64,000 nucleotides of DNA from Symbiodinium natans (taxonomy: Eukaryota > Sar > Dinophyceae > Suessiales > Symbiodiniaceae), in contig CAJNDS010000278.1 in NCBI GenBank assembly GCA_905221605.1, forward strand, positions 115,314-179,313. The letters are read 5' to 3'. Both the position numbers and the translations under genes were made by a program. The notes below the pieces were generated by a model. The model had not been told where the DNA came from. It saw only the letters and a list, made by a program, of their open reading frames with translations, and did not search any database. Below, in pieces: positions 6,251-56,715 of this stretch; position 1 is the stretch's first letter, and every line of letters begins with the position of its first letter.

Positions 6251-8689
6251 GTGCATAAGGGTGCATAGGGTCGAGGCTTTGAGGTCTATAGCGTGTTGGG
6301 GCTTGGGGGGTTTGGGGGGCTTGGTGCGCCAAGATAGCCTACACAAACCTTTCCCCCCCCCCCCGAGCCTGAAACCTTCAGCCGCTCTCAAATGGCTGAG
6401 GCTGAAAAAGCCTCTCAGCTTAAACCCTCTTAAACCTTTGCATGCTTAGGGTTTCTGGTTTTGAGGTTTGTAACTTATGGGCTTTAGGGCTTATGGTTCA
6501 CAGGGAATTAGGGTTCAGGGCGTGAAGGCCTCTAGGGGTTTAGAGCTTCTTCGGTGGCCACCCCAAGCGGCCCCGAACACCCTGAACCCCAGGCCTTAAA
6601 GCGCCCTAAGCCCCCAAACCCTAAACTATCCCTAAACCCCTGAACCCCCTAAAGCCCCCCTAAACCTCGAGGGGCTCAGGGGTGGAAGCCCTGCAGCCGA
6701 CTCGGAAACCCGCCCGGCGCACTGGCAGCGCTGGAGCTGCGCCGCGTAGGGCGACGTCCGCATCTTCTCCAGGCCGATGGCGTCGCCTCTGTGGGGGGCT
6801 TTTGGGGTTGTGGTTCAAGGTAGAGCCCTAAACCCTAAACCCCACACCCTAAACCCTAAACCTCATACACCCTAAACTCGAGTAAATGCGTGAAAGCCCT
6901 ACTAACCCCAAACTCCCCAAAAGCCCTCCACAGGCACTCCAGAGCTTCAGGGCTTTGCGGCTTTTGGGCCTTAGGGGGTGAAAGGGTTCCCAAGTATTTT
7001 TTTAGGGCTAATGAGGATTACTAGGGTTACCTAAGTATTTTTAAGGGATAATTAGGATTACTAGGGTTACCTAGGCTTGCTAGGGTTATTCGGGTCATTT
7101 CGGATTGTGGTTGTTCGGGCTTCAGAGGGCAAGAAAGCTGTCAAGCTGCTAACGGCCCCCTGAGCCCGTAAACCTGAAACCTTGAACCCTAAAAGCCCAA
7201 CAGCCTCTCATCAAACCCTACCTCTAAGGGATTTCCCCCCCCCCTGAACCCTTGTAATTTCCAAAGACCCTTAAAAGGTTCTTAAGGGGGGGGGGGGGTC
7301 CAAGGGGGAGAGGTACCAAGGGAAGCTTAGGGAGCCTTATGGAGTAGTGGTTGCTAAAGAACACCCTACAACCCTAATAACCCCAATAACTAACCCTAAT
7401 AACCCTCATAACACTAATAAACCTACAAGCCCTAGTAACCCTAATAACTCTAGTAGCCCTAAGAACACCTAATAACCCTGGCCCTGCCTGCCACTTGCAC
7501 GCGGGTGCCAACCGGCTGCGGTGCCTGGCCCAAGCAAAGGCTTGGCGCTAGCGGGGATTTGGGCGCAGCACTTGAGGGTTCAGGCTTTAAGGGGCCCTTT
7601 TACGGGGCTTAGTTGGGTTGAGGTTGGAGAATGGCAGAGGGCTTTCTGGCTTAGGGGGTTTAGGGGAAGCCCCTGAGTAAAGGCCGCGGCTGCGTCCAAG
7701 GACCCTTTAGCTTGGTGGGGGGCCGGGGGGGCGGGGCGGAGCCGGGCAGGCTTTGCTCGACCATTGAGAAGCCCTTCAATTAGAATCCCTAAATTGTTCC
7801 TTAAGGAAGTAAGGGTTTAGAGTTTAGGGGCTAAAATCTTGACACCCTGCGACCAGCATGTGTGGCTTCGGGGCTAAACGCAAGCCCCGAACAGCACTGC
7901 CCTTTGGGTCATCCTTGCGATGGCCATCCAGTTGCCCTCTTTTAAGGAGCCTTTGGACCAATGTAGGGTTTTAGGGCTTAGCATTAAGGTCTTGTGGTTT
8001 TCGGGTTTAGGGCCGGGGTTTATAGGGTTTGGGGCTCTAAGAGGTGGAGGGCCCTGCAGTTGCCGCAGCTGTGAGACGTCGGCGCCCCTCACATCTTCGG
8101 GGGCAGCTTTCCGCAGGGATCTCACAGAAAGGCGGCGGAGCGGCGGCCGCCCCACCTGCTGAGGCTGCGAAGTCGGGGCTTAAGGGTTGAGGAGCTAGGG
8201 CCAGAAGCCCAGACTTTCAGGATGCATGGGTCCAAACCCTGTTTGGGTTCCGGGGCTCGCGATAAGGAGCTTCTATAAGTTTAAGTTTTTAAATCCTTCA
8301 TTTTCCCCTGTAAAACGTGGTTTGCAAATTCCTAAATTTTCATAAGCCCTATAAACACTAGACAACCTCTCAGCCCCCAAACCGGCTCCGAGGCACTCTG
8401 CACTTGCTCGGCGCGGACCCGGGGGTCGGCAGAGCTCCTTTGGTTCCAAGGGTCGAGGGCCGCAAGTCGCGGAGGGTTTCCGGGCACATAGGGCTTAGAG
8501 AAGGGGCTTCATGGTCTTTGATGCAGTTGGGAAGTCGGGGAATATTTTTGGGGCTGCGGGCTCTCTTTAAGGTCTCGGCAGAGATAGCTGAGCTGAACTA
8601 AGAATTCGGGTTTGGTAATGTAGGGCTGGTTGGGGAAATGCCCGCACTTTGGGGATCCACGCACAACCCCCCAAGCACGAAACCCTACC

Positions 8690-8815
8690 CTAAGCCCTCA
8701 ACCCTAAGCCCCAAACCCCAAACCCCAAAACCCCCCAAACCCCCCCGAACCCTAAACCCTAAACCCTAAACCCTAAACCCTAAACCCCCCAAACCCCAAA
8801 CCCTAAAACCCTGAC
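8690..8815 (-). repeat. CCCTAAA/CCCCAAA tract
   Basis: Mixed CCCTAAG, CCCCAAA and CCCCCCAAA units surround about five perfect CCCTAAA copies near 8,753-8,787. It is non-coding. Confidence 0.8.
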
Positions 8816-9834
8816 CCAGAGCGAGGCGAGGCGCACAGGCCACCAGCGCTGCGGGGCAGCCGCTGGGCCAAACCTCCGTCTGCTTCTTTGATTCTTTCGG
8901 GGTTCAGGGTTTAGGGTTGAGGGGTTTAGGAGTTTGGGGTTTAGGGTTTGGGATTTGGGGTTAGGGGTCTGCTGGGGCTCAGAGGCTTTGGGAGTTTAAC
9001 ACCCCCCCTAGACCCCTAAACCCCGTAAACCCCCCTAAGCCCCCTACACCCCCCAAACCATTCTGGGTTTGGGCGCCAGGGGATCGAGTTTACAGGGGGC
9101 CAAGGGCCCAGTATTGAAAGTGCTGGGCTTGAGGATCAGAGGGCTCAAAGGCTTAAGAGTTTGGGGCGGCATGGAGCCCCATGAGACCCGACAAAACCCT
9201 TCCAAAAAAAAAAAAAACACCTACACAGCCCTGCAGAAAAGTCCCCATGAAGCGCTGCGCGAGGGCCCCGTAGTAGGCCGCACTGCCCGGCGCGGCTGCG
9301 CCGTCCACGGGCGCGTCGTTGAGGCTCAGGCCGCCGGCTGGCGGCCTCCGTAGCCGCCCGCAACAAAGGGAGCCACCCACAACGAAGGGAAAACCAAGCA
9401 GTTCAGGGTTTAGGGATGAAAGTTCAACAACAGCAGCAATGCTTCAGATTTGGGAGCACCTAAAAAACCGTCTAGACCCAACGATTTCAAGCCCCAAGGA
9501 GCCCTGGCGGCAGGCTCAGGAGGAGGGGCTGGCCGCCCTCGGGGGCCGGCTGGGCGAGCCGGGCGATGCGCTGGACCTGTTGGCCGAAGGTCAGGCTCCA
9601 GGGTCTGGGGCTTAGGTTTTTTTGTTTAAGAATACTATTGCATGCTTGTATGACTATTATATGATTATCGGATTAGATGTTTCATGTCCATTATATAATA
9701 TTTGTAGTGTTGTATTCGAATATGATTACGTTTCTTATTTTGCTACACGGCTATACTGTTATAGCAATTTATCAAGCTATATTGCTGTATTGTTACATTG
9801 CTATATTGCAATATTCCGATTACACTCTTATACT

Positions 9835-10060: not shown

Positions 10061-13000
10061 TAAATGATTATACGATTATACGATTGTATTGCTATATTAT
10101 CATACTGAGATTGCGCTACTTTTCTGTACGATTATGCTATTGTGTTATTGAATTATCGTCCTCTTGCACATTTACCCCAACCATGTTGGACCCTAAGCCC
10201 ATCGTGACTATTGCAGGGTCCTGTTACGTAGAGGTTGGGCCTCGTGTGGCTGTGCTTGGGGCAAAAAACTGCAGAGGGGTCCAAGGTGTTGCGGGTCTTG
10301 GGCTGTACAGGTAGGATGTTAAGTGGCTCTGGGCTGTAGAAGTGGCTCTGGGCTGTCGGGGATTGAGGTGAACCTGGCTTTGCAGTTCTGCAGTTCAGCA
10401 AGATGGCCTTGTAGCACATGAAGGGGATCCCCCCAGCTGTCATCGGCATTCCCATTTTAGAGTCTGCCAGGGCCACCGGCATCGAATGCAGCGGCAAGGA
10501 AGCCGGCATCTTGGCAGCAAGATGGCGCACGCCTATGCTGGCAAAGACACTACACGATGCTGGTTGCTAAGTAGCGTTCTCAAGCGCCGTCAGTCATGTA
10601 CAAGACAGGAGAGACTCTTGATCTGTCCGGGACCCAGGGACCCAAAGATAGTCTTAAAAAGTCTCACTCCGAACTCCTACGCTTCTCGACCTTGAGCCGA
10701 TCTTTGCAAGATGCTCCGGTCTCCACACTGGCCGTCCTGAAACTGAACACCCACTCTTGAACTCCTAAAGCTCTGAGCCATTTCAACTATTCAACGGAAA
10801 AAATCTCATTCCTGGGCCCAATTACAAATGCAGCCATCGGGTTACATTACAAATGCAGCCACAGGGTTCTACAGGGGTCCAGGCGCTTGGGGGCTGCATG
10901 GGTTTAGGCTGTCGGGCTTCTGTTTGGGGGGGCTCGAGGGCTTCGAGGGCTAAATTCAGGGTGTTAGCGCACGAAGCCTCAAAAGGCCAAAGGCCCCCCC
11001 CACCCTCCTCCAAGCAGTCCAACAGAGGCCCCCTGAAGGTGTCGAAGTGTTGGGTTTGGGATGGTTTGGGGTTTAGGGTTGAGAGTTGCCTGCCGTAGCA
11101 GCCATTCGCACTTCGCCGCGGCTTTCGCCGGCCATCGCTCCGTCTCGCGCTCCTCGTGGGAGTTTTGTTCGATTGGGGGGTGGGGTTAGGGTTTCAGATC
11201 CCTACACTAGGCTGAATCATAAGACCCCCAAAGCAAACTCCTGAATCCCCCAGACCTCTACAGCCCGCAAGCCCTAAAACCCTGAACCCTCGAAAGAACG
11301 AAATTCCTGGAACCCGAAAACACACAACATGGAAGTCCCTAGTCCCTGAAACCCTAAACCCTGAATTCTTCAAGTGTATGCATGGAAAAACCCCTGGGTG
11401 CCCAAACGCATAGGAGCCGGCAGAGGAGCTGGTTCACGCCTGTGGACAGCTCCGCCCAGTCCTGGCAGAGGCACGGGGAGTTGGGTTAGGGTTTAGGGTT
11501 TAGGGTCTAGGGTTTAGGGTTTAGGGTTCTGCTGAAGATTTTGAAGCCTTCGAGGTGTACGCCTGGAGTTGCCTCCCTGGCCCCCAAAAGGAAAAAAAAA
11601 AAACACGCAGTTCACGGCTCAGGTGTGAGAAGAAAAGGTAAATACAAAAAAGGAAAACACGACCCCTCAAGCCCCCCAAGAATATTTCCTTGCATAACTT
11701 ATATAAAGCCCGCCAACCTTGAGTTGCTCCCAAGCCCGTAAGCCCTTGAGGCCCAAAGAAGGTTGGGGCTCTTGCTCCCTTTCGCCAGGGCACACCGGCG
11801 TTGAACTTGAAGTGGTAGGGCAGAAGCTCCATCCTGGGCGAAGGAGCTTGCCACACAAGTTCGTCCCCTGCTCTCCAAAATCAGCACCCGCAACAAAATT
11901 TGCTGCAAGTAGACCATGTGCATCGTACCGTATCCTGCTTCTGCTGAGGGGCCATTTGTTGGGCGAGGGGATTGGGTCTCAGCCTTCTTCATGCCACAGG
12001 GGGGCAGACCCTGAAGCCTGAAACCTCCATCGGACTCTATCGCCCTCGAACACTTGAACAGTCCCCTGAAGCCCTCGAGACACAAGCCCACAATCCCCAA
12101 CTGAGCCTGGGTTTCGGGTTTAGGGTTGAAGGACTCAGGGTTTAGGGTTTAGGGTTGAAGAATTAGGGTTCCTAAAACCCTCAACCCTAAACCGCAAGGC
12201 GCTCAGCAGCGGGCACGTCCATGCCTCTGGTGGACCCCCTGGATTCGAGCTGCCTGGACGCTCAAAAGGGCTTCAGGGGAGATGCTTCAAGTGCTTAACC
12301 CAGGGCTAGGGGGCCGAAATGATGGGTCCTTCTGGGCCTGAACCCCAAACCCTAGGCCCCAAGTTGTGGACCACTAAGAAAAGACAAAAACAAGCCACAG
12401 GCGAGCGGCCCACCAAGACCTCCAAAAGTGACGACAGCCAGGAGTTTGGCCACGAGTGAACGATCGCGAACGCTTTCTAACGGTTTCTGACGCTGGCGAA
12501 CCCTTTTCAGTTCCAACACTAGTCAACGCTCGTGAGCGCTAAACGCACAGGTCCGGGTCAGCATCAGACCCCGCACGCGAAACTCCCAAGACGAGAACCC
12601 TTCGCCAAGGTTCGGGCGAAATGAAAGCGGATCTGAAACCCTAAGCCATATGAAAAGCACAAAACCCCAGAAAGCCCGGCCTCCTGTCCTCCTCGGGATA
12701 GCCGAGGAGCATCAGGTAGGCCGTCACCCCACAAGCCCTTCGGGGGCTCAAAGGGGTTCAGAAGAAGTCTGGGGGTTGGGGGTTTAAGGTTTGGGGTTTA
12801 GGGTTTAGGGTTAGGGTTTTGGGGGCTCAGGGGTTTTTTGGCCTGAAGCTCAAAACTTCCCAAAACCCTAAAGATCCCCCAGCGAGATTCGCAACCTTAA
12901 CAGTCCGCTAAGGCCTTAAACTTAGAGGCCCTCAAGCGGAGCGCTGCGCACCACAAACCTCTGCCCCTCATGCACACCAGCATCCTCAGCACCTTTAGGA

Positions 13001-13143
13001 CTTAGGGCTTAGGGCTCATGAAGTTTAACCATTGATGGGCAGTCCCAGAGAACACGAGATTCTTGCACCCACAACACCCTGAGCCCAACACAGGGTGGGA
13101 ACACTCATTGAAGGTGGGAGTACTTCATCCACTTGCCGCTATG

Positions 13144-13572
13144 TGTATGCAGCAGCTTTCCGCTTAGAGATCTTCGCCAATTTCTGGCACAGCATCTATT
13201 GCCCGTGGGCCAATGATCTCAAGAAGGGAGCAGGAGAAAGATAGGATTCAAGTGCCCACAATACACGCGCATAGGACCCATCACACGCCTCCTCCGCCTG
13301 TGCGTGTGATGTACGCCCGGACGCAGACATCACAGGAGGGCGAAGTCCCAAAGTGCCACGCGTAAAGTAAAGGTTGGAACGTAGTGATCAGAAAAGACTA
13401 CCTAGGAACCCGACCTTTGAAAGCGAGCTGAGGCTGATGCAATGAATGTTCTTCACCATCTTCATAAAACTGTGATGAGAACCACGTTATTTTGGGTTGT
13501 CCTCGATTATGCCTGAGTGCACCTGGGATTAAGAGCCAACGTTGGCCCAGGCTTAAAACTCGCCAGCACCAG
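13144..13572 (-). repeat. Downstream 429-bp direct repeat of the retroelement
   Basis: It matches 18,937-19,365 over its full length with one visible mismatch. It begins TGTATGC on the plus strand and ends CACCAG, so it lacks the TG...CA ends of a classical LTR, in keeping with a PLE pLTR. It holds a self-complementary stretch at 13,297-13,336 (GTGATGT pairing with ACATCAC). Confidence 0.92.
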
Positions 13573-13715
13573 ACCTGACAAAATGAAATCCAGCCAGCAA
13601 AACAAACTAACAGGACACGTGAGAATGCAAAATGCGCAAGCAAAGCAGATCAGCATGAAAGCATATGACGGAGTGGAATTTGTTTTGCCACGGGCGGCGG
13701 TCGTAACATCAAAGT

Positions 13716-16700
13716 TCAGAGAGATGTAGGGCTTTGGCGCCCAACTGCAAATACGATTTGAGGCCTCTTAAAAGACTCACAATAATTGCCGTTCATCACT
13801 GGCAGGTTGGTTCGGAACTCATTCAGCAGCGTACTGTCATGCGACACGTGCTTTAGCCAGATTTTCAGCTTTTCAGTCACAAAACCTTCAGGGTAACCAG
13901 CTTGGCGAGTGATCATCACCATGAAGTCTCTCAGAGATTGTAGGAAACATGCCCTGTTGCTGGACAATTGTTTACATCTCGCAAAACCACCCATGAGAAC
14001 CGCTTCAAATGTCGCCGGTGGTGAGAAAGAGCACCATGGTAGCAGCGCTTGTTGATAGCGCCGACTGTAAGCAACAACTTCGCCAACAGGTTTGTAGTGA
14101 GCGCGCCAATGGATCGAATCATGCATGCTCAGCAGCGTCATCCCAACAAAGGGGTTGACAGCATCATCCTTCATGACAAGGTGCGGAGGGTACACAAACA
14201 TCAAAATTTCTTCAGCACGTTTTGCCGCCCAATCCTCACCATAGCAGAGGGGATACAGGATGAAAATCCTGAGGTCGTCAACAAAGCGGATACCACAGAA
14301 GGAGCAGTCTTTCAGGTTCTCCTTGTACGCTAGCCAGGTTTGAGACCTCAAAGCCCTCATTTCATGAGCGACGAGAACCAGTCGAAAAATTGCACCACCC
14401 GCAGCTTGTCCCATCATGATGCCTTCGGTTTGCCACCCGCGAGCGGCTCCAAAGCAGAACTGCATGTGGCGGAACAAGAACGCCAACACAGGGTCCACGT
14501 CCTCAAGGGCGAATTTAACCCATTGGGTCCCTGCCGGTTTGGTCCACGACGCAGAGCCATGAGGAGAGTGTAGTGAGCGTTTTGCAGTTGGGGAGGTCGT
14601 AACCCACGCGCTCCGACGGCCCATTTGCTGCATGGCAGAACTGATGAAATGCCAGGCATCCTGGGCTTCCTGGTGCTGGATTCGCATGTATCCGTTGTCC
14701 ACATCCCGTGAGAGGATGAGAGTGCCGTAGTTGCTTAATTCATTCATCTTCGTGCTCAAGCCCAGATGTTCAAAAGGTCTATCCCGAAACTTTTCCATCG
14801 AGGCGATAACCGACTGGTGAGTGGGGCGGTCAAAATGCGAATCCGTCGGGAGGCTTTTGAGACATAGGTCAATGAAACGAGCAAGGAGGCGGCACAACAA
14901 GCTCAAAGGATTGCAAGACTGGTCACCCAGCGGTCGAGCAATCGCAAGGTTCTTGTGTTTGGGGACAGCTCTGACCTTTCCCCATGATTCATCACGCCCT
15001 GCCAAAGCTGTCAGCCAGCGACGTTTAAACCGCTTGTTGAGTGAGGCTGGCTGCAGGGTTTCACGCAGATTTGGGATCGAAGTGGCTTTTGTGTCCAACC
15101 AGCTCTCATCACTTCGTAGGTAAGTGAAGTTTGTACCCTCAACTGGCTGCAAGCAATCAGTGAGGTCGACCTTGCGTGCAGTGAACTCACCGAAGTCTAC
15201 AGCTTCGGAGTCAATGTTCCTGACTGTTAGCAGCATGTCTGACTCCACTCCAAGCTTGGAGGAGCTGTTGTTACCTGCATGTGTTTTGAAGGGGCGCAAG
15301 ACCTTATAAGCAGCACCAATCATCAACAGGTTGCCTGGCGGGTGGTGCTGGAACAAACCACAAGCTTGCAGAAAGTACATGCGTGGGCACATGCATACAA
15401 ACTCCGATGTGTTCTTATCGAGCGCCTCTATGAAGAGACCCTCGCAAAGCCTTTTCACTTGAAGCACGTCAGCCATGAGTACGTGGTGGCCCTGCGCATC
15501 AGAACGTGCATCAAACACACGCCAACTATCAGCCAACAACTGTGAGAATTCCTTCGAAGTGGCTTCTAGCTTCTCTTTGACAGTGTCACAGCACCAGGGA
15601 TCCAGCAGTGCGCGGGCAGTACGGGAAAAACCCCTCTGAACATCACGAAGCGTGGAACGCTTGCCTGGCACCACACGGGTGCGTGCTGACAGCCGGCGTA
15701 TAAAGTCTAGATGACTCGGCACAGGGAGCTCACTCTGACGCACGCAAACGTGATAAGTACCATCTAGGGCTTTGCATCTTGGCCATCGATCTTTGGGGAA
15801 AGCGTGACAACAGCATGCGCAAAAGTTCGCATCATCCAGATGATTGTTGAACTTTGGCGCGGAGCGCACCACATCTAGCATACTAGGAGCCGGCTTCCAA
15901 ACAATCTGGCACTTTGCTCGCCCGTCAGAAAATACGGTAGCTTGGCAAGCCCCTATGGCGAACAGTCGGACAAGGAACTTTTGGATGAGCTGCTTAGTGC
16001 TACGAAAGTGCAACGGGGTGCCACACCACGGCAACTCAAGCACAAGACGTTTGACAGGGAGTTGCAGCTTGAGTTGGCAGGCACGTTTGCGCAAAAACCT
16101 CATAGCATTGTTTCTGTTGCTGGATGATGCCCAGCGACGGACCTGATGGAAGATGTACACCAGGGTGGTACGAGACTTGAGAAGGAACAGAAGGCGGAGA
16201 CCATGTTTGGCAACTTTGTCACGCCGATTGAAACACAAAGCACACAGAATGCGGCCAACGGATGAGAAAGGCTGGGGCTTTGACGGTAGGCGAAGCATAC
16301 CAACAGCTCTAAAACCTCGTTGTTTCCTGAGATGTCTTGCCATGGGGCGTTGGCACTGTAACAAGGCCTGGTCAGGACTGTGAGACTGCGGAGCCCTCAA
16401 TGGCACTGCAGGTCCTAAGATCTTTCGCCTTCGTGCCAAGCTCGGGTTCACCAACTCAAGCGCTTCATGACTGAGGTGGCGATAAACATGAGGAGTGTTC
16501 AGCTTGAAGCAAAAGTTGCCAAGAAAAACACGCTCAGCTGCTACCGCCTCATGCACTCCACCATCAACGGCCACAACAGGCAGCATGAAGAAAGACGCCA
16601 CAGCAGGCAGTTCACTGTGCACCTTTTCTCTGAAGAAAAAATACGCAGGGATCTGGCCAGTGGCTCCAGGATTGTGTATCCTGAAAGTGTGATCGGTGTG

Positions 16701-17006
16701 CCTGCGGTTGAAGTCAACTGTCCGCCCAGCATACACGTGGGAGTGCAGTGGACTCCACAGAACATATAGAGCATTACACGGAATTGTCGTCAAGTGAGGC
16801 CACAGGCCGCCTGGAAATCGCTTCAGGTATGCAACAAGGCTCACGTCATGATCAAAGGTTGACAATGAGAGGTATTCAATCACAACCGGGAGTGACACAA
16901 GTCGCAAGTCAAGCAAGGCTGACAAACTGCAGTTGCCAGCAGTACCCAGCTTCCTGGCAACGGAACACATGCACTCAATTAGCAAGAACAGTATGGATCG
17001 CAACAC
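13716..17006 (-). CDS. Retroelement ORF2: GIY-YIG endonuclease plus reverse transcriptase
   Basis: This is the likely enzyme for target-primed insertion. Numbering runs from the GTG at 17,006; the first ATG is at 16,970, and the frame is open further upstream to the TGA at 17,091. Residues about 79-171 fit a GIY-YIG nuclease: ALYVLW for GIY, VYAG for YIG at 91-94, an Arg pair at 101-102, a Glu at 158 and FKLN near 170. A Cys-rich patch lies near 390-420. The RT follows: basic segment with PKHKNLAIARPLGDQ near 675-700, motif A (SRDVDNGY, Asp near 767), motif B (GIMMGQAAGG, about 862-872) and motif C FVDD at 908-911. The RT uses FVDD instead of the usual YxDD. No second nuclease follows the RT. 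The 1,096 codons suit a PLE. The catalytic residues appear intact, so it may be active. Closest known arrangement: permuted Chlamys/Naiad PLEs. The assignment is by motif only. Confidence 0.82.
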   Translation of the reverse strand: MLRSILFLLIECMCSVARKLGTAGNCSLSALLDLRLVSLPVVIEYLSLSTFDHDVSLVAYLKRFPGGLWPHLTTIPCNALYVLWSPLHSHVYAGRTVDFNRRHTDHTFRIHNPGATGQIPAYFFFREKVHSELPAVASFFMLPVVAVDGGVHEAVAAERVFLGNFCFKLNTPHVYRHLSHEALELVNPSLARRRKILGPAVPLRAPQSHSPDQALLQCQRPMARHLRKQRGFRAVGMLRLPSKPQPFSSVGRILCALCFNRRDKVAKHGLRLLFLLKSRTTLVYIFHQVRRWASSSNRNNAMRFLRKRACQLKLQLPVKRLVLELPWCGTPLHFRSTKQLIQKFLVRLFAIGACQATVFSDGRAKCQIVWKPAPSMLDVVRSAPKFNNHLDDANFCACCCHAFPKDRWPRCKALDGTYHVCVRQSELPVPSHLDFIRRLSARTRVVPGKRSTLRDVQRGFSRTARALLDPWCCDTVKEKLEATSKEFSQLLADSWRVFDARSDAQGHHVLMADVLQVKRLCEGLFIEALDKNTSEFVCMCPRMYFLQACGLFQHHPPGNLLMIGAAYKVLRPFKTHAGNNSSSKLGVESDMLLTVRNIDSEAVDFGEFTARKVDLTDCLQPVEGTNFTYLRSDESWLDTKATSIPNLRETLQPASLNKRFKRRWLTALAGRDESWGKVRAVPKHKNLAIARPLGDQSCNPLSLLCRLLARFIDLCLKSLPTDSHFDRPTHQSVIASMEKFRDRPFEHLGLSTKMNELSNYGTLILSRDVDNGYMRIQHQEAQDAWHFISSAMQQMGRRSAWVTTSPTAKRSLHSPHGSASWTKPAGTQWVKFALEDVDPVLAFLFRHMQFCFGAARGWQTEGIMMGQAAGGAIFRLVLVAHEMRALRSQTWLAYKENLKDCSFCGIRFVDDLRIFILYPLCYGEDWAAKRAEEILMFVYPPHLVMKDDAVNPFVGMTLLSMHDSIHWRAHYKPVGEVVAYSRRYQQALLPWCSFSPPATFEAVLMGGFARCKQLSSNRACFLQSLRDFMVMITRQAGYPEGFVTEKLKIWLKHVSHDSTLLNEFRTNLPVMNGNYCESFKRPQIVFAVGRQSPTSL

Positions 17007-17090
17007 GCTTCTCCATTGGGCCCTTCTTTGCGATGGGAGTCGAGTTGCCTCTGCGACGTGCGTGGCAACGTCATCGCCTTGACGATGTAG

Positions 17091-17093
17091 TCA
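17091..17093 (-). other. Single in-frame TGA between ORF1 and ORF2
   Basis: ORF1 and ORF2 share one frame. After the TGA the frame stays open for 28 codons to the GTG at 17,006 and then through ORF2, so this one codon is all that separates a 529-codon and a 1,124-codon reading frame. It could be a programmed readthrough site, a recent nonsense mutation in a fused ORF, or an ordinary ORF1 stop followed by reinitiation at the ATG at 16,970. The base after TGA on the minus strand is C (TGA-CTA), a context that favours readthrough in several eukaryotes. Confidence 0.7.
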
Positions 17094-18680
17094 CTCATCG
17101 GCGTCGTGCTTCATGGCAAGGGCACGTGCCACCCATCTGCGAAGCTCATGCACTTGGCGCTTGTCACACTTCAAGCCAATATTTTGTGTGGCCAGCTTGA
17201 AAGTACCATAGACGGACTCACGGATTTGACCCTCAACACCCAACTTTTCCAAGGCAGTGTCAAATTTGACAGCAACGGCGTGCAGCGGTGAGCTGCTATC
17301 AATGGGTTGCTCTTTGCTGGCTTCTTTGACTGACAGAAGCGTGGTCCCAGGCAATGAACGCGGCAAAGCAGACGCATCATGCTCAAACTTGTCAAGAGTG
17401 TAGGCACCAAAGTCAAAGTCAACACGCTTGGGCAGTTTGGACGCAGGCTCACTGGATGCATGCTCCGAGACCGTTGGAGCTTTACGTTTTTCAGGAGCCT
17501 CATGTTGTCCCTTCTTGTACTGCTGAGGAACGTTGGTAGCAATCCAAGCAACGCACTCTTGCACAACCGGCTTGGCCACTTGCAGGTTTAATTTAGGAAC
17601 TACTCCGAAGAAGAAGTCCCTTTCATTACTGCTGGTGGCTATGGGCTTGGCACCTTCACGAATCCAAAACTTGCGCGATTCAGTCGGCTGCAACTCCACA
17701 ATCCTCTGAATCATGAGCTTGTTGATCGCCAGGCATTTCGCAATTTTATCAGGACTGCCCCGATCCATGCGTTGGATGTCATCGGGGTTGAGGTGGCTTG
17801 GCGCTTTCCAAAGGAGTGCATTCAAAGTGTTATGCAACAACACAGCATCGGCTATCTTTGTTGGATCAGCTCGACCCTCCTCGATGCCATGATGCATGGA
17901 CTGTGTGATAAATGGGTGCAAGTCTACGCCCTGACACACTCGACCAAGCGAGTCAATCAGCGAATCGGCGACAACTCTGAGATCATTCTCATCAAGATGG
18001 TCAAGGCTGACAACGGAGTTAATCAAACACCGCACAGTGCTGTCAAAATCGCCAGCCTTTTCTGTTGCGCAAGGCATAGCTTTCAACACCTCAGTCCTTT
18101 CAGCTTCTGAAAGCAGCAACAGCATATCAACAGCTTGCTGGACCCTTGACGCGTGTGGCTGGGATGGAGTTTGCGAAGCATCAGGGAAACCAGAGTGGCT
18201 TGGCATAGGCGGTTGCGTGGGTTGGCAGCCTGTATGATGCATTGGTTGAAAGGATGGGTTGCTCATTTGCAAAGGCACTGTTGTCGAAGCTTGCGAAGCA
18301 TCAGGGACACCGGGGGGGTTCGGCATAGGTGTCATGTGTGCGGGTTGGAAGCCTGTGTGATGCAAAGGCTGCATCGAAGGACTGCTCATTTGCATAGGCA
18401 CTGTCGCCGTCTCCGCGCCTCCTTGGACGTGTTGCCCGTCATACACGTTGCTATGGAGGGGGAAAAACCAGTTTCCCTGCATGCCCCAGTTGGCACTCGG
18501 ATTGCACTGCCCTTGGTAGAACAGGTTCTGTCCAACGCCAAACATTGCGCAAAACCTACAACAGGCGACCACTGGAGTCAGCTCTGGATGGAATCCACGC
18601 TGCAAACCCTTTGTTTGAGCACGAGAGGCAACACGAGAACCGTAAGAAACATCCTCGATCGCAAGAAAGGCTGTGAACAT
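17091..18680 (-). CDS. Retroelement ORF1 (putative RNA-binding or structural protein)
   Basis: It has 529 codons from an ATG, directly upstream of the RT ORF and in the same frame. A second Met at residue 46 (MFGVGQNLF) is an alternative start. Residues 92-131 and 132-171 are two imperfect tandem copies of a Pro/Met/His-rich unit with HHTG and PDASQ in each. The rest is predicted soluble and helical, with a basic, Lys-rich stretch near 390-410 (KRKAP, KLPKR). I recognise no family. By position it would be the nucleic-acid-binding or gag-like partner of the RT. A role as a separate protein or as the N-terminus of a readthrough fusion are both possible (see the stop at 17,091). Confidence 0.7.
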   Translation of the reverse strand: MFTAFLAIEDVSYGSRVASRAQTKGLQRGFHPELTPVVACCRFCAMFGVGQNLFYQGQCNPSANWGMQGNWFFPLHSNVYDGQHVQGGAETATVPMQMSSPSMQPLHHTGFQPAHMTPMPNPPGVPDASQASTTVPLQMSNPSFQPMHHTGCQPTQPPMPSHSGFPDASQTPSQPHASRVQQAVDMLLLLSEAERTEVLKAMPCATEKAGDFDSTVRCLINSVVSLDHLDENDLRVVADSLIDSLGRVCQGVDLHPFITQSMHHGIEEGRADPTKIADAVLLHNTLNALLWKAPSHLNPDDIQRMDRGSPDKIAKCLAINKLMIQRIVELQPTESRKFWIREGAKPIATSSNERDFFFGVVPKLNLQVAKPVVQECVAWIATNVPQQYKKGQHEAPEKRKAPTVSEHASSEPASKLPKRVDFDFGAYTLDKFEHDASALPRSLPGTTLLSVKEASKEQPIDSSSPLHAVAVKFDTALEKLGVEGQIRESVYGTFKLATQNIGLKCDKRQVHELRRWVARALAMKHDADE

Positions 18681-18936
18681 GTGAAATTACAAGTACTCTG
18701 CACCACTTCGCAAGAGGTAGAAACAGGTAATGTGAGCCAACAACATCCAAAAAAAAAAACTACAGCAAACCGCAACTGATCTCATTGAACCATTAGAACC
18801 TGGTAAATCTGATGCCATGAGATTCTCTATGTTTCTCTGTTAATTTCTCTATGTCCATTGGACAATGACAAGTCCCCCGATGGAGGCATTTTGAGACACG
18901 GCATCAGCCAGAAGGCCGGAACTCGTGCCCAAAACA

Positions 18937-19365
18937 TGTATGCAGCAGCTTTCCGCTTAGAGATCTTCGTCAATTTCTGGCACAGCATCTATTGCCCGTG
19001 GGCCAATGATCTCAAGAAGGGAGCAGGAGAAAGATAGGATTCAAGTGCCCACAATACACGCGCATAGGACCCATCACACGCCTCCTCCGCCTGTGCGTGT
19101 GATGTACGCCCGGACGCAGACATCACAGGAGGGCGAAGTCCCAAAGTGCCACGCGTAAAGTAAAGGTTGGAACGTAGTGATCAGAAAAGACTACCTAGGA
19201 ACCCGACCTTTGAAAGCGAGCTGAGGCTGATGCAATGAATGTTCTTCACCATCTTCATAAAACTGTGATGAGAACCACGTTATTTTGGGTTGTCCTCGAT
19301 TATGCCTGAGTGCACCTGGGATTAAGAGCCAACGTTGGCCCAGGCTTAAAACTCGCCAGCACCAG
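18937..19365 (-). repeat. Upstream 429-bp direct repeat of the retroelement
   Basis: This is the second copy of the repeat, 5' of ORF1 in the sense of the element's transcript. It is separated from the ORF1 start by about 256 bp that hold no ORF of note and are likely the leader. Any promoter for the element should lie here, but I recognise no specific box. Confidence 0.92.
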
Positions 19366-21884
19366 TCGTTGAAAGTCCGTTGGCAAAGCTGACAGTAGGG
19401 ATAGGTGTAGCTTCCTTCGGGCTACACAAAGTCAGGTATTGTCTCACTTGTCGCATGCAACTCATGAGCTACTCAGAAACACCCATGAGCCTTCAAGCGC
19501 GGGGGTTATTCTAACTTCTGGGGCTTCCTTGTGCAAAGAGTCCCTGGAAAAAAGGGCCCCGAGCTGCGTTACGGTTCAGGAACTTTAAGGTACCATGATA
19601 AGAAAACTGTGGATCCTGAGAAGTTACCATGATAAGAAAACCATGGAACTTGCCAATTCCGGAACAGCAACCAAGCAAGAGGACCATTGCAAGGTTTCGG
19701 CGGGATACAAATGTTGGGCCCTTCTTATCGTACCCTGAACTACAAGGAGCCTACTTGCACCCTAAACCCTTAAACCCTAGTAGATCAAGCCCCCCGCCCC
19801 CCCCTCCCCACTGGCAACCGCACCACATGTCGCAGGATTCGGTGTACTTGCCCTGATGCACCTGACAGGCATCATTGGGTCACTTCCATCGGTTTTCAGG
19901 GTTTGGGATTTAGGGATCCCTCCCCCCCTCCCCAACCTAAAACTCTAGACGACCCAAACCACAAACTTCCCCTCAACTCTGAAACGGGGTCGTTTCAAGG
20001 GCTCCAGGGCTTCAGGGCGCGAGCGTTGAGGGTTTGGGTTAAGGGCTGAGGTAAGGAACTTCGGGAGGCTAACCTTGACATGCCCTGTTCCCCCCCCCCT
20101 CCCCTTGGTAAAACCTCGGACAACCCAGTTTAGGAAACCCCTGAGGACCCGGCTTGAGGAGAACAGTAGTAGGGAGTGCCGGTGCGGTCCGAAAAGACCT
20201 GGGACAGGCTCCGAACAGAGCGCCTTCGGGGTCTTGGGGTATAGGGCTTAGAGAGCAAGAGTTTGGGGCTTTGGCAGCTTCTGTCTGAGAGGTGCTTAAG
20301 AGAGTTGAAGGGCTTTAGGGTGCAGGTGTAGGGTTTCAAGGAACTTGGCTCAAAATATTGGGGGTGTTCAAGCGCAGAGGTTTGGGCCGCTCGCATTCGA
20401 AGTCTGCTCTCCAGAGCTTAGAAAGGCTCCTCTGCTCCGCAAAAAGCACAAGAAGCGATTCACAACCAGCCTTGCAAGCCGCCATGAAACCCGAACGCTG
20501 CCGATGCAAGCCCGCAGCCCTCCGACCAAGAGAACACCGGCATCCTGACCGCTAGGGCCAGGATCCGACTGGAAAACGCCATAAACGCAAACCCTAGGCC
20601 CTAAGCCAAAAACCCGAACCCCATACTAAGTTCGGCATGTTCCCACCCAGGAGCAGACCCTCAACTTGCAACCTCTTGGGGTTCTTCGTGTGCATTTTCG
20701 CAAAGGGGGGGGGGGGGTACCCCGAATATAGCCGAAAGTACTTTGATTCTTATTATAGGAACCCCAAAAAAAAGGATACCCTAAACCCTAACCCCCTATT
20801 TTCGGAAAGGTTCTTAACCCTCCCAAAAAGAAGGGGTTTAGGAATTACAGGTTTAGGGTTTAGGTTTTGGGGTTATGGGTTGAGCGGGTTTAGGCTGAGA
20901 CCCCAAAACCCTGAAAAGTCCTGCGGCTGGGGTGGGTGGCGTAGCCAGGGTTGGCAAACTCCGAGGCACACTTGAAGTCGATGAGCTGGCATCACTGGGG
21001 CTCCGGGTATAGACTTGAGGCTTAAGGTAAGCTGAGGGGCTTGGGGGTTTCGGGGGTTTTCGGCTTCTCTTTGAAATAGTTTGGGGGCAACCAACTCAGG
21101 CTTCGGACTTGCTTAAGGTGTTCACAGAAAGATTTTTGCAAACACACCCTAAACCCTACAAAAGCCCCTAGCCAAGCCCGACCTTACACACCACATGCTG
21201 ACACCCTCTGGACCCCCTTGGGAAATGGCCGGGCGTACCATCGGTGACGGAAGAGGTGCTTTTGGAAGTCGGCAATTGACTTGAGTTTAGGCCTAAACCC
21301 AAAAAGGAATCGGTCCGGGTGGCTTCGCTGCCTTGGACGGCGTGAGGTGGGAGACAGGTGTTGTTGGATGGCCCTCCACAATCGGGCCAGAGCTGCTCTT
21401 CGCACCTGACGAAGCCCTTAAACCCCAAACCCTAAACCCTAAACCCCAAACCCTAAACCCCAAACCCTTAACCCTACAAACCCTGAACCCACAAACCCTA
21501 AACCCCAAACCGGGCGGGCACGCTTTGACCTGGCTTCGGAGAAGGCTCCCTTTCTGCTTCATCAGCACCTGGTAGCTGCCACACTTCTTGGGGTCCCTTC
21601 TTGGGGTCCTTATTTTCTGGGTGCCGTTTTGTTTGGTTTTTTAAACGGCGGGCCCAAAAAGGGGCCCAGATGTCAGGCTTGTAGCAGCTTTTGGGGCTCT
21701 TCGGGAGGTGTTTGGCGGGTGTTAAAGTTTCGAGATTTCCAAAGGGGGGCCTTATCTTATTCTAGGATGAACCCTCGGTATTGCCTTGTTGCTGGCCGTA
21801 TCTTCGCCTCTCGCTGCCACAATGAGACTATTGCACCTGAAAGGCCTTTAATAATACCATGACATGTCAAGCGAAGAGCAGGGC

Positions 21885-22070
21885 TCGGGCTTGGGTTTAA
21901 GGGTTAAGGGTTGAGGGTTGAGGGTCAAGGGTCTGGTTTAGGGTTTAGGGCTTAGGGCTTAGGGCTTCGGGCTTCAATCTAAAAACTTAGAACTTCGGGC
22001 TTAGGGCTTAGGGTTTAGGGTTTAGGGCTTCGAGCTTAGGGTTTAGGGTTTAGGGTTTAGGGTTTAGGGG
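21885..22070 (+). repeat. TTTAGGG/CTTAGGG/TTCGGGC tract
   Basis: Units alternate among TTTAGGG, CTTAGGG and CTTCGGG and end in about four perfect TTTAGGG copies at 22,040-22,070. Confidence 0.8.
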
Positions 22071-40959: not shown

Positions 40960-43515
40960 AACACTGATTCTCCAATCTCTGGTTAAAAGCGAATCCGAAG
41001 CTCAAGGACTGCAAGCTGCCAGTCGAGGCCCCATTGTCCTAGCTCTGGCTGAAGCAATGCCCGAAGCTCAAGGACTGCAAGCTGCCAGGCAAGGCCACAT
41101 TCTCCAAGCGCTGCCTGAAATGATGTCCGAAGCTCAGGGACTGCAAGCTGCCAGGAAAGGCCACATTCTCCAAGCTCTGGCTGAAGCAAAGCCCGAAGCT
41201 ACTGAGCTGCCAGGAAAGGCCACATTCTCCAAGCTCTGGTTGAAGCAATGCCCGAAGCTCAAGGACTGCAAGCTGCCAGGCAAGGCCACATTCTCCAAGC
41301 GCTGCCTGAAATGATGTCCGAAACTCAAGGATTGCAAGCTGCCAGGAAAAGCCACATTCTCCAAGCTCTGGTTGAAGCAATGCCCGAAGCTCAAGGACTG
41401 CAAGCTTGCCAGGCAAGGCCACATTCTCCAAGCGCTGCCTGAAATGATGTCCGAAACTCAAGGATTGCAAGCTGCCAGGAAAGGCCACATTCTCCAAGCT
41501 CTGGTTGAAGCAATGCCCGAAGCTCAAGGACTGCAAGCTGCCAGGCAAGGCCACATTCTCCCAGCGCTGCCTGAAATGATGTCCGAAACTCAAGGATTGC
41601 AAGCTGCCAGGAATGGCCACATTCTCCAAGCTCTGGTTGAAGCAATGCCCGAAGCTCAAGGACTGCAAGCTGCCAGGCAAGGCCACATTCTCCAAGCGCT
41701 GCCTGAAATGATGTCCGAAACTCAAGGATTGCAAGCTGCCAGGAAAGGCCACATTCTCCAAGCTCTGGTTGAAGCAATGCCCGAAGCTCAAGGACTGCAA
41801 GCTGCCAGGCAAGGCCACATTCTCCAAGCGCTGCCTGAAATGATGTCCGAAACTCAAGGATTGCAAGCTGCCAGGAAGTGCCACACTCTCCAAGCTCTGG
41901 TTGAAGCAATGCCCGAAGCTCAAGGACTGCAAGCTGCCAGGCAACGCCACGTTCTCCAAGCGCTGCCTGAAATGATGTCCGAAACTCAAGGATTGCAAGC
42001 TGCCAGGAATGGCCACATTCTCCAAGCTCTGGTTGAAGCAATGCCCGAAGCTCAAGGACTGCAAGCTGCCAGGCAAGGCCACATTCTCCAAGCGCTGCCT
42101 GAAATGATGTCCGAAACTCAAGGATTGCAAGCTGCAAGGAAAGGCCACATTCTCCAAGCTCTGGTTGAAGCAATGCCCGAAGCTCAAGTACTGCAAGCTA
42201 CCAGGCAAGGCCACATTCTCCAAGCTCTGCATGAAATGATGTCCGAAACTCCAGGACTGCAAGCTGCCAGGAAAGGCCACATTCTCCAAGCTCTGGTTGA
42301 AGCAATGCCCGAAGCTCAAGGACTGCAAGCTGCCAGGCAACGCCGCGTATCCGAAGCCCGAAGCTCAAGGACTGCAAGCTGCCAGGCAAAGCCACGTTCT
42401 CCAAGCTCTGGCTGGAACACACTTCTACGCTCAAGGACTGCAAGCTGCCAGGCAAAGCCACATTCTCCAAACTATGGTAAAAACATGCCCCGAAGCTCAA
42501 GGAGTGCAAGCTGCCAGGCAAGGTCACAATCTCCCAGCTCTGTATGACTCAAAGACTGCAACCCGCCTGGCAAAACCACATTTTCCAAGCTCTGGTTGAA
42601 ACACTATCCAACGCTCAAGGAACGCAAGCGGCCAGGCACGGCCACATTCTACAATCTCTGGTTAAAAGCGAATCCGAAGCTCAAGGACTGCAAGCTGCCA
42701 GTCAAGGCCCCATTCTCCTAGCTCTGGTTGAAATCAAAAACGAAGCTCAAGGACAGCAAGCTACCAGGCAAGGCCACATTCTCCAAGCTCTGCATGAAAT
42801 GATGTCCAAATGATGTCCGACACTCAAGGACTGCAAGCTGCCAGGAAAGGCCACATTCTCCAAGCTCTGGTTGAAGCAATGCCCGAAGCTCAAGGACTGG
42901 CAGCTGCCAGGCAACGCCACGTTCTCAAAGCTCCCGTTGAATCGTATCCGAAGCCCGAAGCTCAAGGACTGCAAGCTGCCAGGCAAAGCCACGTTCTCCA
43001 GGCTCTGGCTGGAACACACTTCTAAGCTCGAGGACTGCAAGCTGCCAGGCAAAGCCACATTCTCCAAACTATGACACAAACATGCCCCGAAGCTCAAGGA
43101 GTGCAAGCTGCCAGGCAAGGTCACAATCTCCCAGCTCTGTATGAAGCAGTGTCCGAACCTCAAAGACTGCACCCGCCTGGCAAAACCACATTTTCCAAGC
43201 TCTGGTTGAAACACTATCCAACGCTCCAGGAATGCAAGCGGCCAGGCACGGCCACATTCTCCAATCTCGGGTTAAAAGCGAATCCGAAGCTCAAGGACTG
43301 CAAGCTGCCAGTCAAGGCCCCATTCTCCTAGCTCTGGTTGAAATCGAAAACGAAGCCCAAGGACAGCAAGCTGCCAGGCAAGGCCACATTCTCCAAGCTC
43401 TGCATGAAATGATGTCCAAATGATGTCCGAAACTCAAGGACTGCAAGCTGCCAGGAAAGGCCGAAGCTGGAGGACTGCAAGCTGCCAGGCAGGGCCACTG
43501 CCAGTAAACCCGGAA
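40960..43515 (-). pseudogene. Broken FNIP/LRR-like repeat gene (66-bp tandem array)
   Basis: About 38 copies of a 66-bp monomer run here. In the cleanest part (41.2-42.3 kb) two monomer types alternate to make a 132-bp dimer. On the minus strand each monomer encodes 22 residues of the form LPGSLQSLSFGHCFNQSLENVA. The P-x-S-L-x-x-L-x-F-G-x-x-FNQ-L pattern is that of FNIP-type leucine-rich repeats, known from Dictyostelium and abundant in many protists, usually in protein-protein interaction domains. The longest frame is 41,039-42,340 (433 codons) but opens on TTG, not ATG. It shifts frame at about 41,405 (one extra base) and shifts back near 41,200 (about seven bases lost). Further frame breaks occur at 42.2-43.2 kb. 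There is no recognisable start, end or other domain. It is probably a decayed gene or gene fragment. The plus-strand ORFs are shadows. Confidence 0.72.
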
Positions 43516-44134: not shown

Positions 44135-47100
44135 TCAAGTCCTGTCTTCTTCCATAGCTCGTCTCGCACCCTTCAGCATTTCTTCTCCTAACAGCTCAGG
44201 GTACACACCTGACGCCGGGAGCTGAAGGTGGATGTGTTGGTGGCTCTCATCACAGCGGTTCCTAGCCATACTGTTGATGAAATTCGAAGAGTTACTACAA
44301 AACCACCATCTCTTCCAGGCTCTTTCAGAACCCTTCTCGAAGCAACAGCGATCGACGACACATCCCTTCGCAAGACCAAGACGTTGACTTACAGACCTGA
44401 AGACCGTTTCATTCCACAAGTCAGATCTAGCTGGCCACTCGTGAGAAAGAAGAAGACGCGGACAGTTCGCGTACGGACGGAGAAGGTTCCAAATCCTTCG
44501 CCAAGACCTCTTGTGGACCAAAAGAGACTCCCGCCACCTGGCGTAGGACTGTCCACCTTTTCGAAATCTCAAATGACGAAGTCCGCACCCAGCCGAACAC
44601 GGCGTAGACAAGTGCGCATACACCTTCACCCCTTCCTGAAGTAACACGCTAAAGACTTCTTTGAGAAGCTGGTATCCGTTTTCACTTAACAGATCCACTT
44701 GCTTCGTCACTCCAAAATACGCGATACGAGGATTCTTCGAGCAAGCTTTTGACAAAGAGCTTCCTTCTTCACAGCAGAGCTCAACCACAACATAAGAAGC
44801 CTGGTTCCTTGCTACCTTCTCTGCTGCGGCTCGCCAAGAAACTGGGACGTTCAGTTCGCAGACTTCATCTGCTGGTTTATTGGGCTCTTTAAACGTGACA
44901 GAAACGCTGGTTCCGGAATCTTTCTCTTTCCAATGGACTGGTTCCGGAATGAGGCCACAAGCCTCGCACAAGCTGACCAAACTGTCGTTAGTTGGGCTTT
45001 TTGTTAGAGCATCTGCCGGGTTGACAGCACCTGGTATGTGCTCAATCGTGAATCTTCCAAGCTGGACAAGTTCCTGGAGAAAAGCGGCTCTTAACTCAAT
45101 ATGGCGGACCTTCCTCAACAATGTCCCCATTTTGGAAATGGACACGGCGCTTTCAGAGTCCGAATACCCCTTAAGAAGGTAGTACCCCGTTTCCCGGTCC
45201 TTCGGGATGCCCTCCAAGATGGTCTCCGTCAAGAGAGCAATGTACAAACCTTCCCTGGCTATCTCAGTAAGCGCCGCAAGCTCACTCTCGGCGCTCGAAA
45301 GGGCTGTGGTGGACTGCTTCCTGCTGAACGTCTTTAAACAGCAGTTTTCCCAAGTAATCACACCACCACTAACAGAATTCAGGCTCCAGCTTGCGTCCGT
45401 AAAGCACGATACCGCTTGGGGATCCGCATCGTCTTCCAGGATCTCCCGAGTCGACGGAAACACCTGAACCTTATGCGGAAGACCTTTGACCCATTTGAGA
45501 ACATCCCTCATGCATGTTTCAGCTGCCTCGTCAGGGGCCGACTGATGACGCCCCAAAAATCCGCAGCAGAACTGCAAATCTGGTCTGGAGAGGGCAGCCC
45601 ATGCTAGACGCCCTAAGGTCCTACGGTACTTCTCGTGAGCAGCTGGACTGATCTTTTCGGTTTGGCCTTTCTTAATGAGGTCAGAGTAGCGCTTCTCCAA
45701 TGACGGAAGCTTGGGGTTCGGTTTGGTTATCCCATACTCTTCACAGCAAGAATCCAAATACTTAGCGTCCAGTCCAAAATAGACTCGCTTCTCTCCCTTA
45801 TTCCTGAAGATTCGCCGTCCTAGAAAGGATACTTCTCCCGCACAATTCTCATGAAGCTCACCAGTCAGTTTCAGCTTGTAGCGTTTCTGTAGATCTTCGA
45901 AAACCTTCTTCCCTTCGGAGGGGTCCTCAGAGTAGATTAACAAATCGTCAACATAAAAGAGGACCAGCGTCAGACCCTTGGAGGTCTTCCTGCGGTATAT
46001 CGTCGGGTCCAAGCTTGGACTGAATCCGCTCTCCTCCAAGTGCGAACTCAGCTCCTTATACCAAGAAAGCGGTGCTGATCTCAGTCCGTTCATGGCTTTG
46101 TGTAATCGAAGATACACCTTCTTGTTTCCGGCCTTTTGAGGGATTTTAGAGTCCGCAAAACTCACGTTACTCGGAAGCTCTACGTACTCAGGCCTTGACA
46201 CTGCTGCATGCATAAAAGCAACGCTCACGTCACAGCTCAACACTGAACCTCTTCGACAAAGCAGTGCCAACAGAAGCCGCAATCCCTCCAAACTCGTAGT
46301 CGGGCTATAGATACCTTCAGACAAGGTCGTGCCTCCCATCGAAGCATAATCTCTTACTACCAGACGTGACCGGTACAGCCCTTTACGCTTGACCGTGTTG
46401 ACCCACCGACTGGTAAGTACCCGCCTGCCGCTCTCACGTGCGGACTTCCGGGCCTCATCTTCAGAGATCACCTTTCCTACTCCGAACGACTCGAGTTCCT
46501 CTAGTTCCAACTTCATTGAGGCATACAAAAGGCTCGGATCCAACTGTTCTCCGGATGTTTCAGAGACCGCATTTCGTGGTACCTGGCACTTGACCCTACT
46601 TCCTCCGAATTTCAAGGTAAACGAGTCAGCCACCTCCTGTGAGGTAGCTCGAAGGTCAGGTCCTCGGTACAAAGACTCCAAGAGGTGATTCGTAAGCCAA
46701 TCAATCTCCATGTCCTCCATGTTTTCCCCCTCATCAGGCAGGATCCCTGCCTCACCTTCTTCCGCCGGGGCACTTACGGGAGCATAGGTATCGTCAGCAA
46801 TCATCTCTTCGTCTTCTTCATTTAAAGGACCAACACCACCTTCCATGACTTCATCTTCAGGACCATTCCCATCATCAACACCTTCGGGTTCATACAAGAC
46901 AGGCCGTTCTGGGTCTTTACCATCAAGAACCAAAGACTGCGCAACAGCGAGGCCTTCGACAGTTCCCACCTCGCACGCTCCATCAACGATTCTTCCGGTC
47001 GGAAATACGTCAATCTCCGTACTACCAAAAGGGGCCGCGAAGATCCCTCCACCTCGTGCGTTCACGGGTCCTAAGTAAACAGCCTTGACTGTTTTCGCTC

Positions 47101-52735: not shown

Positions 52736-52744
52736 AGGCGGTAG

Positions 52745-56080: not shown

Positions 56081-56715
56081 CTGCAGGTCGTTGTTGTTTT
56101 TTCCTGTGGAAAGAAGTCACGCTTCACGGTGGAGGCATTTAAGCGTGTTGCGCCTGCCCGGAGCTTAAGTTGCCACGCGCTCAACGAAGAAGAAGAAGAT
56201 ACAGGGAAAGGCCGATGCCAGCGAAAGCCTTGTGAACGTCAGTTCGTCTTCTCCATTGAAGTGTACGTGAGGTTTAAATGGTTGGGAGCGTTCACGTGGC
56301 TTGCACGCAACATCATCTTCGAGCCTCAGACTTTGCTGAAGGCTTCCAAGCCTTTGGAGGCCGGTCCGAGGCCTCCTCCAGTTGAACAGGGCGTGATTTT
56401 GTTTGCTTGCCCGCTGGAGACCGACATCAGCTTGCAATGTCACGCAGAGGGCTTCTCTCAGGACTTTCGCATGCCCGTCGAAATCTTTGAAAGCTCAGGA
56501 TCATCGAGGACTTATTTGAGGCCCGTCGAGAAGTCTGAAGTTAAAGCTTGCGGCAGCAAGAATAGCTTTTGCAGGATCATCTTAAGCGGTCAACCCCCCT
56601 TCGAGGTCCGTCGTGATGTTTTGAATAGAGTGAGAATGAAGAGGACTTGGAGCCAGCTGCGGCTTAAAATTCTTTTCACGTGAAAGAAGAGAGGCAGCCA
56701 GGGTTCGTCCGGGCT

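Follow-up and report, generated by a model that had tools for sequence, protein, structure and literature searches.

A nuclease-first, probably Penelope-like retroelement of Symbiodinium natans with a conserved in-frame UGA-C between its two open reading frames

Introduction

Chlamys elements, treated by Craig et al. in 2021, are reportedly Penelope-like elements with an N-terminal endonuclease, in which a GIY-YIG domain precedes the reverse transcriptase (RT), and the Naiads of spiders and clams are said in the same work to encode selenoproteins. Chlamys elements combine this order with a CxC-type linker and pseudo-long terminal repeats (pseudo-LTRs), and reportedly have neither a hammerhead ribozyme nor a CCHH motif in the endonuclease; Naiads share the order, the CxC linker and the pseudo-LTRs, and some of them recode UGA as selenocysteine. 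Both groups are further marked by an insertion-in-fingers domain in the RT and a bias of insertions towards microsatellites, and Penelope-like elements in general by an RT that groups with Penelope and telomerase (TERT) and usually by short target-site duplications (TSDs). Here we analyse a retroelement of similar anatomy in the dinoflagellate Symbiodinium natans, located in a stretch of 64,000 nucleotides (GenBank assembly GCA_905221605.1, contig CAJNDS010000278.1, positions 115,314 to 179,313 of the forward strand; hereafter the window). We find that its two open reading frames (ORFs), ORF1 and the nuclease-RT frame ORF2, are joined in the same frame by one conserved UGA-C. With a probability of roughly 0.6, we regard the locus as a dinoflagellate retroelement of the nuclease-first Penelope-like kind that has been active recently and would express an ORF1-endonuclease-RT protein through readthrough of the UGA-C.

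Two other kinds of systems invite comparison. Gag-Pol readthrough retroelements and viruses, such as gammaretroviruses, likewise have an upstream protein, one stop in a weak context (UGA-CUA or UGA-CGG) and the enzyme in the same frame, a likeness that implies no common ancestry. Penelope and Poseidon elements (PMC3846280, PMC11167929) resemble the present element in their partial-tandem pseudo-LTRs and solo pseudo-LTRs, and insertions without TSD are on record for them, but the canonical elements are described as single-ORF (PMC11167929) with a C-terminal GIY-YIG, and the Anolis element has a hammerhead motif. In the open-access papers searched, none on Penelope-like readthrough or on a dinoflagellate Penelope was found by title, and the word Penelope is absent from the main text of two dinoflagellate genome papers.

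Results and Discussion

Two open reading frames in one frame

The complete retroelement occupies positions 13144-19365 of the window on the minus strand, as do all of its features given below, and reads from its 5' end (19365) to its 3' end (13144) as repeat, ORF1, one TGA, ORF2 and repeat. The 5' repeat (18937-19365) is followed by a 5' untranslated stretch, assigned by position (18681-18936), by ORF1 (17091-18680; 529 aa), which ends at the single TGA (17091-17093), and by the ORF2 frame (13716-17090; 1124 codons, with a terminal TGA); a 3' untranslated stretch, also assigned by position (13573-13715), leads to the 3' repeat (13144-13572). An earlier reading made from the sequence alone had called both ORFs on the minus strand, the second as 1096 aa (13716-17006), and had described ORF1 as separate. 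Both ORFs are indeed present, but they lie in one frame. ORF2 remains open as far as 17090, which makes the GTG called as its start at 17006 an artefact of ORF calling. Numbering of ORF2 residues begins here with the first codon downstream of the ORF1 stop; residue n of the sequence-only reading thereby becomes n + 28. The joint frame of 1655 codons contains only two stops, one at the junction and one at the end, while the other frames contain 61 and 108. A relative on another contig (C375) follows a like plan, with two stops in 1579 codons.

Copies, relatives and selection

We searched the genome (759.4 Mb in 2543 contigs) for other copies, which are named by contig (C278 for the window; C2158, C578, C1856, C2390, C375, C226, C2023 and C2422 for the others), counts of ORF matches being lower bounds. 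The ORF2 query gave at least 15 matches on at least 11 contigs, window included, and the ORF1 query at least seven matches on six contigs, all of which also carry ORF2. Two more full-length copies were identified: C2158, with 2 differences from the window copy in 6222 bp (99.97% identity), and C578, which is 98.5% identical and has one TAG in ORF2. The flanks of both are unrelated to those of the window copy. More distant relatives, 36-38% identical in protein, are found on C1856, C375 and C2390, with pieces elsewhere. With DNA sequences that agree at about 96%, C1856 and C2390 form one subfamily; C375, C226 and C2023 form another. The three subfamilies are about 35-39% identical.

Between the window and C578 copies, ORF1 shows 13.0 synonymous and 6.0 non-synonymous changes (ratio of non-synonymous to synonymous rates, dN/dS, 0.13) and ORF2 shows 21.5 and 15.5 (dN/dS 0.22). 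Both proteins of the window subfamily have therefore been under selection. For ORF2 of C1856 versus C2390, dN/dS is 0.40, and 0.65 over the 40 codons that directly follow the TGA, the latter value being based on just 3 differences. The sequence-only reading had proposed recent activity, which is borne out by the three full-length copies in different flanks, their divergences of 0.03% and 1.5% and the purifying selection, but not by the identity of the repeats, on which it had relied (see below).

A conserved UGA-C between ORF1 and ORF2

At the junction, the TGA is followed by C in all six copies that span it, from three subfamilies: TGA CTA in C278, C2158, C578 and C1856, TGA CGA in C2390, and TGA CTC in C375. 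Since the six copies represent three subfamilies, they are three, not six, independent witnesses. The final stop of ORF2 varies (TGA in the window, TAA in C375, TAG in C1856), and its variation serves as a natural control for the constant inner stop. Over the 40 codons after the stop (in C375 and C1856 counted from one codon further on, in the same frame), protein similarity in frame 0 gives scores of 82, 40 and 57, which 0, 2 and 0 of 1000 shuffles attain. This in-frame coding similarity reaches upstream of the first in-frame AUG, whose distance from the stop is 120 nt in the window, C1856 and C2390 and 60 nt in C375. In all four copies, out-of-frame ATGs precede it (16, 25, 25 and 4 nt after the stop). 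UGA-CUA, the context found in the window, is a known weak stop context. The UGA is thus a candidate readthrough stop, and our best reading of these sequences is that the endonuclease-RT would be made as an ORF1-ORF2 fusion by readthrough of the UGA-C.

The same element could also translate ORF2 without readthrough, if an in-frame intron removed the UGA, if ribosomes reinitiated after ORF1, or if the UGA encoded selenocysteine. The Naiad selenoproteins reported from spiders and clams offer a precedent for the last of these routes. Introns have precedents too: a title in the reference list of PMC11167929 indicates that Penelope-like elements can keep them, and PMC3846280 mentions one in a Pen5 copy. 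Such translation is nonetheless unlikely in our view, given the out-of-frame ATGs that come before the first in-frame one in the four copies examined and the coding similarity that extends upstream of it. An intron would in addition need a length that is a multiple of 3 and would have to include the UGA in each subfamily. The UGA sits in a poorly conserved linker. A search of 12800-19600 against Rfam at E≤10 revealed no selenocysteine insertion sequence (SECIS), and its four listed matches are unrelated and under their cut-offs. The absence of a SECIS match, the position of the single UGA at a protein boundary and the lack of a conserved CCHH in the nuclease also set the element apart from Naiads.

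Several observations at the junction nevertheless weigh against readthrough. Two of the six off-frame controls are also high (window versus C1856 in frame 1, 5/1000; C375 versus C1856 in frame 2, 1/1000), the remaining four being low (84, 451, 895 and 306 of 1000 shuffles). ORF1 is frame-broken near its end in C1856 and C2390, by a different single-base deletion in each, so that only four of the six copies, which belong to two of the three subfamilies, show the unbroken ORF1-UGA-ORF2 frame; in the third, just the last ORF1 codons are in frame with the TGA. Stops also occur within ORF2, namely the TAG of C578 and two TGA in C2390, and conservation between subfamilies is poor over the first 20 or so residues downstream of the UGA. 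Finally, RNA structure after the UGA is not beyond that of shuffles (z of -0.34, 2.04, 0.26 and -0.94), and in finding no stimulating structure the junction differs from Gag-Pol readthrough systems.

Nuclease, linker and reverse transcriptase of ORF2

The nuclease domain is assigned to residues 91-215 (16446-16820). GIY-YIG is the sole Pfam match for this stretch, at E 0.023 in the window and E 0.035 in C375, below the gathering score, and likewise the sole match of the C1856 protein (E 0.019, again below that score). With whole proteins as queries, GIY-YIG reaches E 0.26 for the window ORF2, and RVT_1 alone is listed for C375. Seven residues of the domain (Y109, Y120, G122, R130, H131, E186 and N198) are invariant across the three subfamilies. 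An AlphaFold model, made for the C1856 relative and not for the window copy, is of low confidence (pLDDT 46, pTM 0.39); compared with 350,542 PDB chains, it ranks three I-TevI chains first to third (E 0.12-0.18, probability 0.92-0.94), whereas the remaining 47 rows shown have a probability of 0.11 or less. A profile of the nuclease region searched against PDB places I-TevI third, in register (E 0.58), behind two unrelated chains. In PHROGs, C1856 matches a GIY-YIG homing endonuclease family (E 0.037), the window a family of unknown function (E 0.5) and C375 none. Each of these lines is weak alone, and their concordance supports the predicted GIY-YIG identity that the sequence-only reading had put forward. 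No Cys before residue 356 is invariant in the three aligned ORF2 proteins, so the endonuclease has no conserved CCHH motif, which Chlamys reportedly lacks as well.

Between nuclease and RT lies a CxC-type linker (15744-15821), with C424, C426 and C428 followed by H447 and C449, all invariant in the three subfamilies. The RT region spans residues of about 690-1010 (14061-15023), with profile matches in the C375 relative only: its C-terminal part matches RVT_1 in Pfam (E 0.019) and an RT model in PADLOC (E 0.00043). The region contains SRDVDNGYM, EGIMMGQAAGG and RFVDD, which we take to be motifs A, B and C, respectively. The nuclease thus precedes the RT, as first proposed, and Pfam searches gave no match for a C-terminal nuclease in ORF2. 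A strongly basic part of ORF2 extends over residues 215-640 (pI 10.3). A profile of the RT region matched a single unrelated designed protein in PDB (E 0.076), the whole-ORF2 AlphaFold model, built from 12 rows, is unusable (pLDDT 35), and the NCBIfam search gave no match. A PADLOC match of a C2390 piece to a type II restriction enzyme (E 0.058) was judged to be due to chance. Viral contigs gave 64 pattern matches, with no relative among these.

Could the element belong to a retroelement lineage outside Penelope-like elements, which joined a GIY-YIG domain and came to use partial tandem copies on its own? Motif B, which reads G-x-x-MGSSLGG or G-x-x-MGQAAGG and looks unusual beside Chlamys, points that way, as do RT profiles that match weakly and in relatives only and the lack of a credible solved-structure match for the RT. 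Such an origin is rather improbable, as GIY-YIG, pseudo-LTRs, CxC linker and nuclease-first order together make up the signature of one described clade. The C-terminal part of the RT (R.K.LSS...GYP) also appears to resemble Penelope-like proteins, judged by eye only. This alternative concerns the clade of the element, and ORF2 translation without readthrough its expression, so that the two are not mutually exclusive.

By its anatomy, the element is thus probably a nuclease-first Penelope-like element. The likeness to Chlamys and Naiads suggested by the sequence-only reading holds for the order of domains, the CxC-type linker, the pseudo-LTRs and the absence of a hammerhead from the Rfam matches to 12800-19600 (E≤10). 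Apparent differences from Chlamys are the upstream ORF1, which a UGA-C stop links in frame to ORF2, the dinoflagellate host and the lack of an evident microsatellite bias. The ORF1-UGA-C-ORF2 arrangement probably makes the element a variant among its kind. That it represents a deep lineage at or outside the base of nuclease-first Penelope-like elements, with Gag-Pol-like expression from a structural ORF1 protein and a readthrough ORF1-nuclease-RT polyprotein across a conserved UGA-C stop, is a tentative proposal that we would hold at less than even odds.

Pseudo-LTRs and insertion sites

The two 429-bp direct repeats noted earlier (13144-13572 and 18937-19365) are confirmed, with a single base distinguishing them. 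This base, at column 396, reads A in the 5' repeat and G in the 3' repeat (coding sense) of both C278 and C2158; both C578 repeats and a solo copy have G, and the one difference between the two C578 repeats is at another column, 379. As C278 and C2158 share this difference in unrelated flanks, both repeats were most simply copied as they stand. Repeat identity cannot date an insertion when another insertion carries the same repeat difference, and the claim that it marks a young age is thus not upheld.

The upstream repeat duplicates the 3' end of the element itself, head-to-tail and with a 5' truncation. Repeats of about 1.4 kb, 96.5% alike, are present in C1856 and take in the 3' part of ORF2. 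In C226, the 3' untranslated region, preceded by the 3' half of ORF2, ends 18 nt ahead of a 5' untranslated region and ORF1 start. These two layouts identify the upstream repeat as a 5'-truncated tandem copy, and pseudo-LTRs formed from partial tandem copies with variable 5' ends are found in the window, C2158, C578, C1856 and C226. An upstream 5'-truncated tandem copy is also on record for Penelope-like elements (PMC3846280, PMC11167929). The 3' end, ...GCATACA, is common to the window, C2158 and C578 copies. Measured from it, the 5' edge of the repeat lies at 429 nt in the window, 439 in C2158, 435 in C578 (439 if a mismatch is allowed) and 434 in the solo C2422 copy. Such closely placed 5' ends in four insertions point to a fixed RNA 5' end, as random truncation would hardly give them. 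The solo copy has the same 3' end, with a match that runs 2 nt further, which fits an internal start of reverse transcription, as PMC11167929 reports for an Anolis element.

The near-identical direct repeats at both ends, the solo copy and the Gag-Pol-like ORF order would also suit an LTR-type or DIRS-type element whose 429-bp repeats are true LTRs. We judge this very improbable. Identical regeneration of the repeats at each insertion, as expected of LTRs, is contradicted by the one 5'/3' difference common to two insertions; repeats in relatives reach about 1.4 kb and contain ORF2 coding sequence; and no integrase, RNase H or tyrosine recombinase appears among the Pfam matches.

Other results tell against the favoured reading of the element. 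The window copy has no RT profile match in Pfam or PADLOC searches, its RT being very divergent. No second repeat copy was found for the C375 element in the 10-kb stretch examined. Both window flanks and one C578 flank match only themselves in the genome search, so that no empty site was found. Nor was a TSD detected in four insertions (60-nt flanks compared), an absence which also speaks against true LTRs and is on record for Penelope-like insertions (PMC3846280). The longest words common to both flanks are 5, 12, 5 and 6 nt; only the 12-nt word of C2158 is beyond shuffles, and it is telomere-like and lies 38 and 30 nt from the element edges.

Regarding the surroundings of insertions, C1856 ends at a CA-rich run and C2158 lies among telomere-like repeats, while the window and C578 copies do not. 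Many degenerate TTTAGGG-like runs, in both orientations, occur around the window element (11000-13000 and 19700-22000) and also in the C2158 flanks. The 21-nt dinoflagellate spliced-leader (DinoSL) sequence has 205 exact matches in the genome (104 forward, 101 reverse; reversed control, 0), which shows the host to be a dinoflagellate. Three candidate DinoSL relics at element loci, each mismatched at 6 of 21 positions, were judged to be chance matches.

Proposed mechanism and implications

Under the nuclease-first Penelope-like reading with readthrough, transcription would start in the upstream copy of the 3' end, some 430-440 nt before the unit, and yield an RNA carrying this partial copy and the full unit. 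Ribosomes would make ORF1, a Gag-like structural protein by its position, and in a fraction of passes might read through the UGA-C to give the ORF1-endonuclease-RT fusion. By analogy with relatives, the GIY-YIG nuclease may then nick the target and the RT copy the RNA from the nick, both repeats being copied as they stand: copying from the 3' end of the RNA would produce a full copy, and copying from the inner copy of that end a solo one.

If this is correct, the conserved in-frame UGA-C between ORF1 and the nuclease-RT would bring Gag-Pol type dosage control to the Penelope-like class; it would also be a conserved case of readthrough in a dinoflagellate genome, and nuclease-first Penelope-like elements would be placed in dinoflagellates. 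A repeat difference shared by two natural insertions makes pseudo-LTR identity unfit as an LTR-style clock.

ORF1 and neighbouring sequences

ORF1 has no credible family match in Pfam or PDB profile searches. Its first 200 aa contain imperfect repeats, as had been noted from the sequence, including direct repeats with a period of 120-123 nt at 18168-18409 (families D8 and D9), and its C-terminal half is conserved. ORF1 is mildly acidic (pI 6.5) and the basic part lies in ORF2, from which we would guess at a structural rather than an RNA-coating role. Matches to cytochrome c-556 (PDB profile search, E 0.38) and to PSII_Pbs27 (Pfam, E 0.19, C375 only) were put down to chance.

A sense reading of UGA throughout this genome, making the element one ORF, is hardly credible even though Amoebophrya, a dinoflagellate-related alveolate, reassigns all three stops (PMC6394959), as the 1655-codon frame has no UGA besides that of the junction and the final one, where ORF2 ends, and with the standard code a Copia-type ORF of 2869 aa stays open elsewhere in the window.

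This single uninterrupted ORF (44135-52744, minus strand) has RVT_2 as its sole Pfam match at 0.001 (E 3.1e-26) and shows CCHC and DSGAT motifs by eye. Three near-identical open frames of 322, 320 and 272 aa, about 1.5 kb apart, lie at 56676-60689 on the minus strand and reflect a recent tandem duplication. A repeat array at 41039-42547, with a repeated LQSLSFGH-type unit, contains several open frames of up to 441 aa, on both strands. On contig C2390, a 754-aa open frame (7325-9589 of the stretch examined) adjoins a broken copy of the element family and is perhaps the protein of another mobile element.

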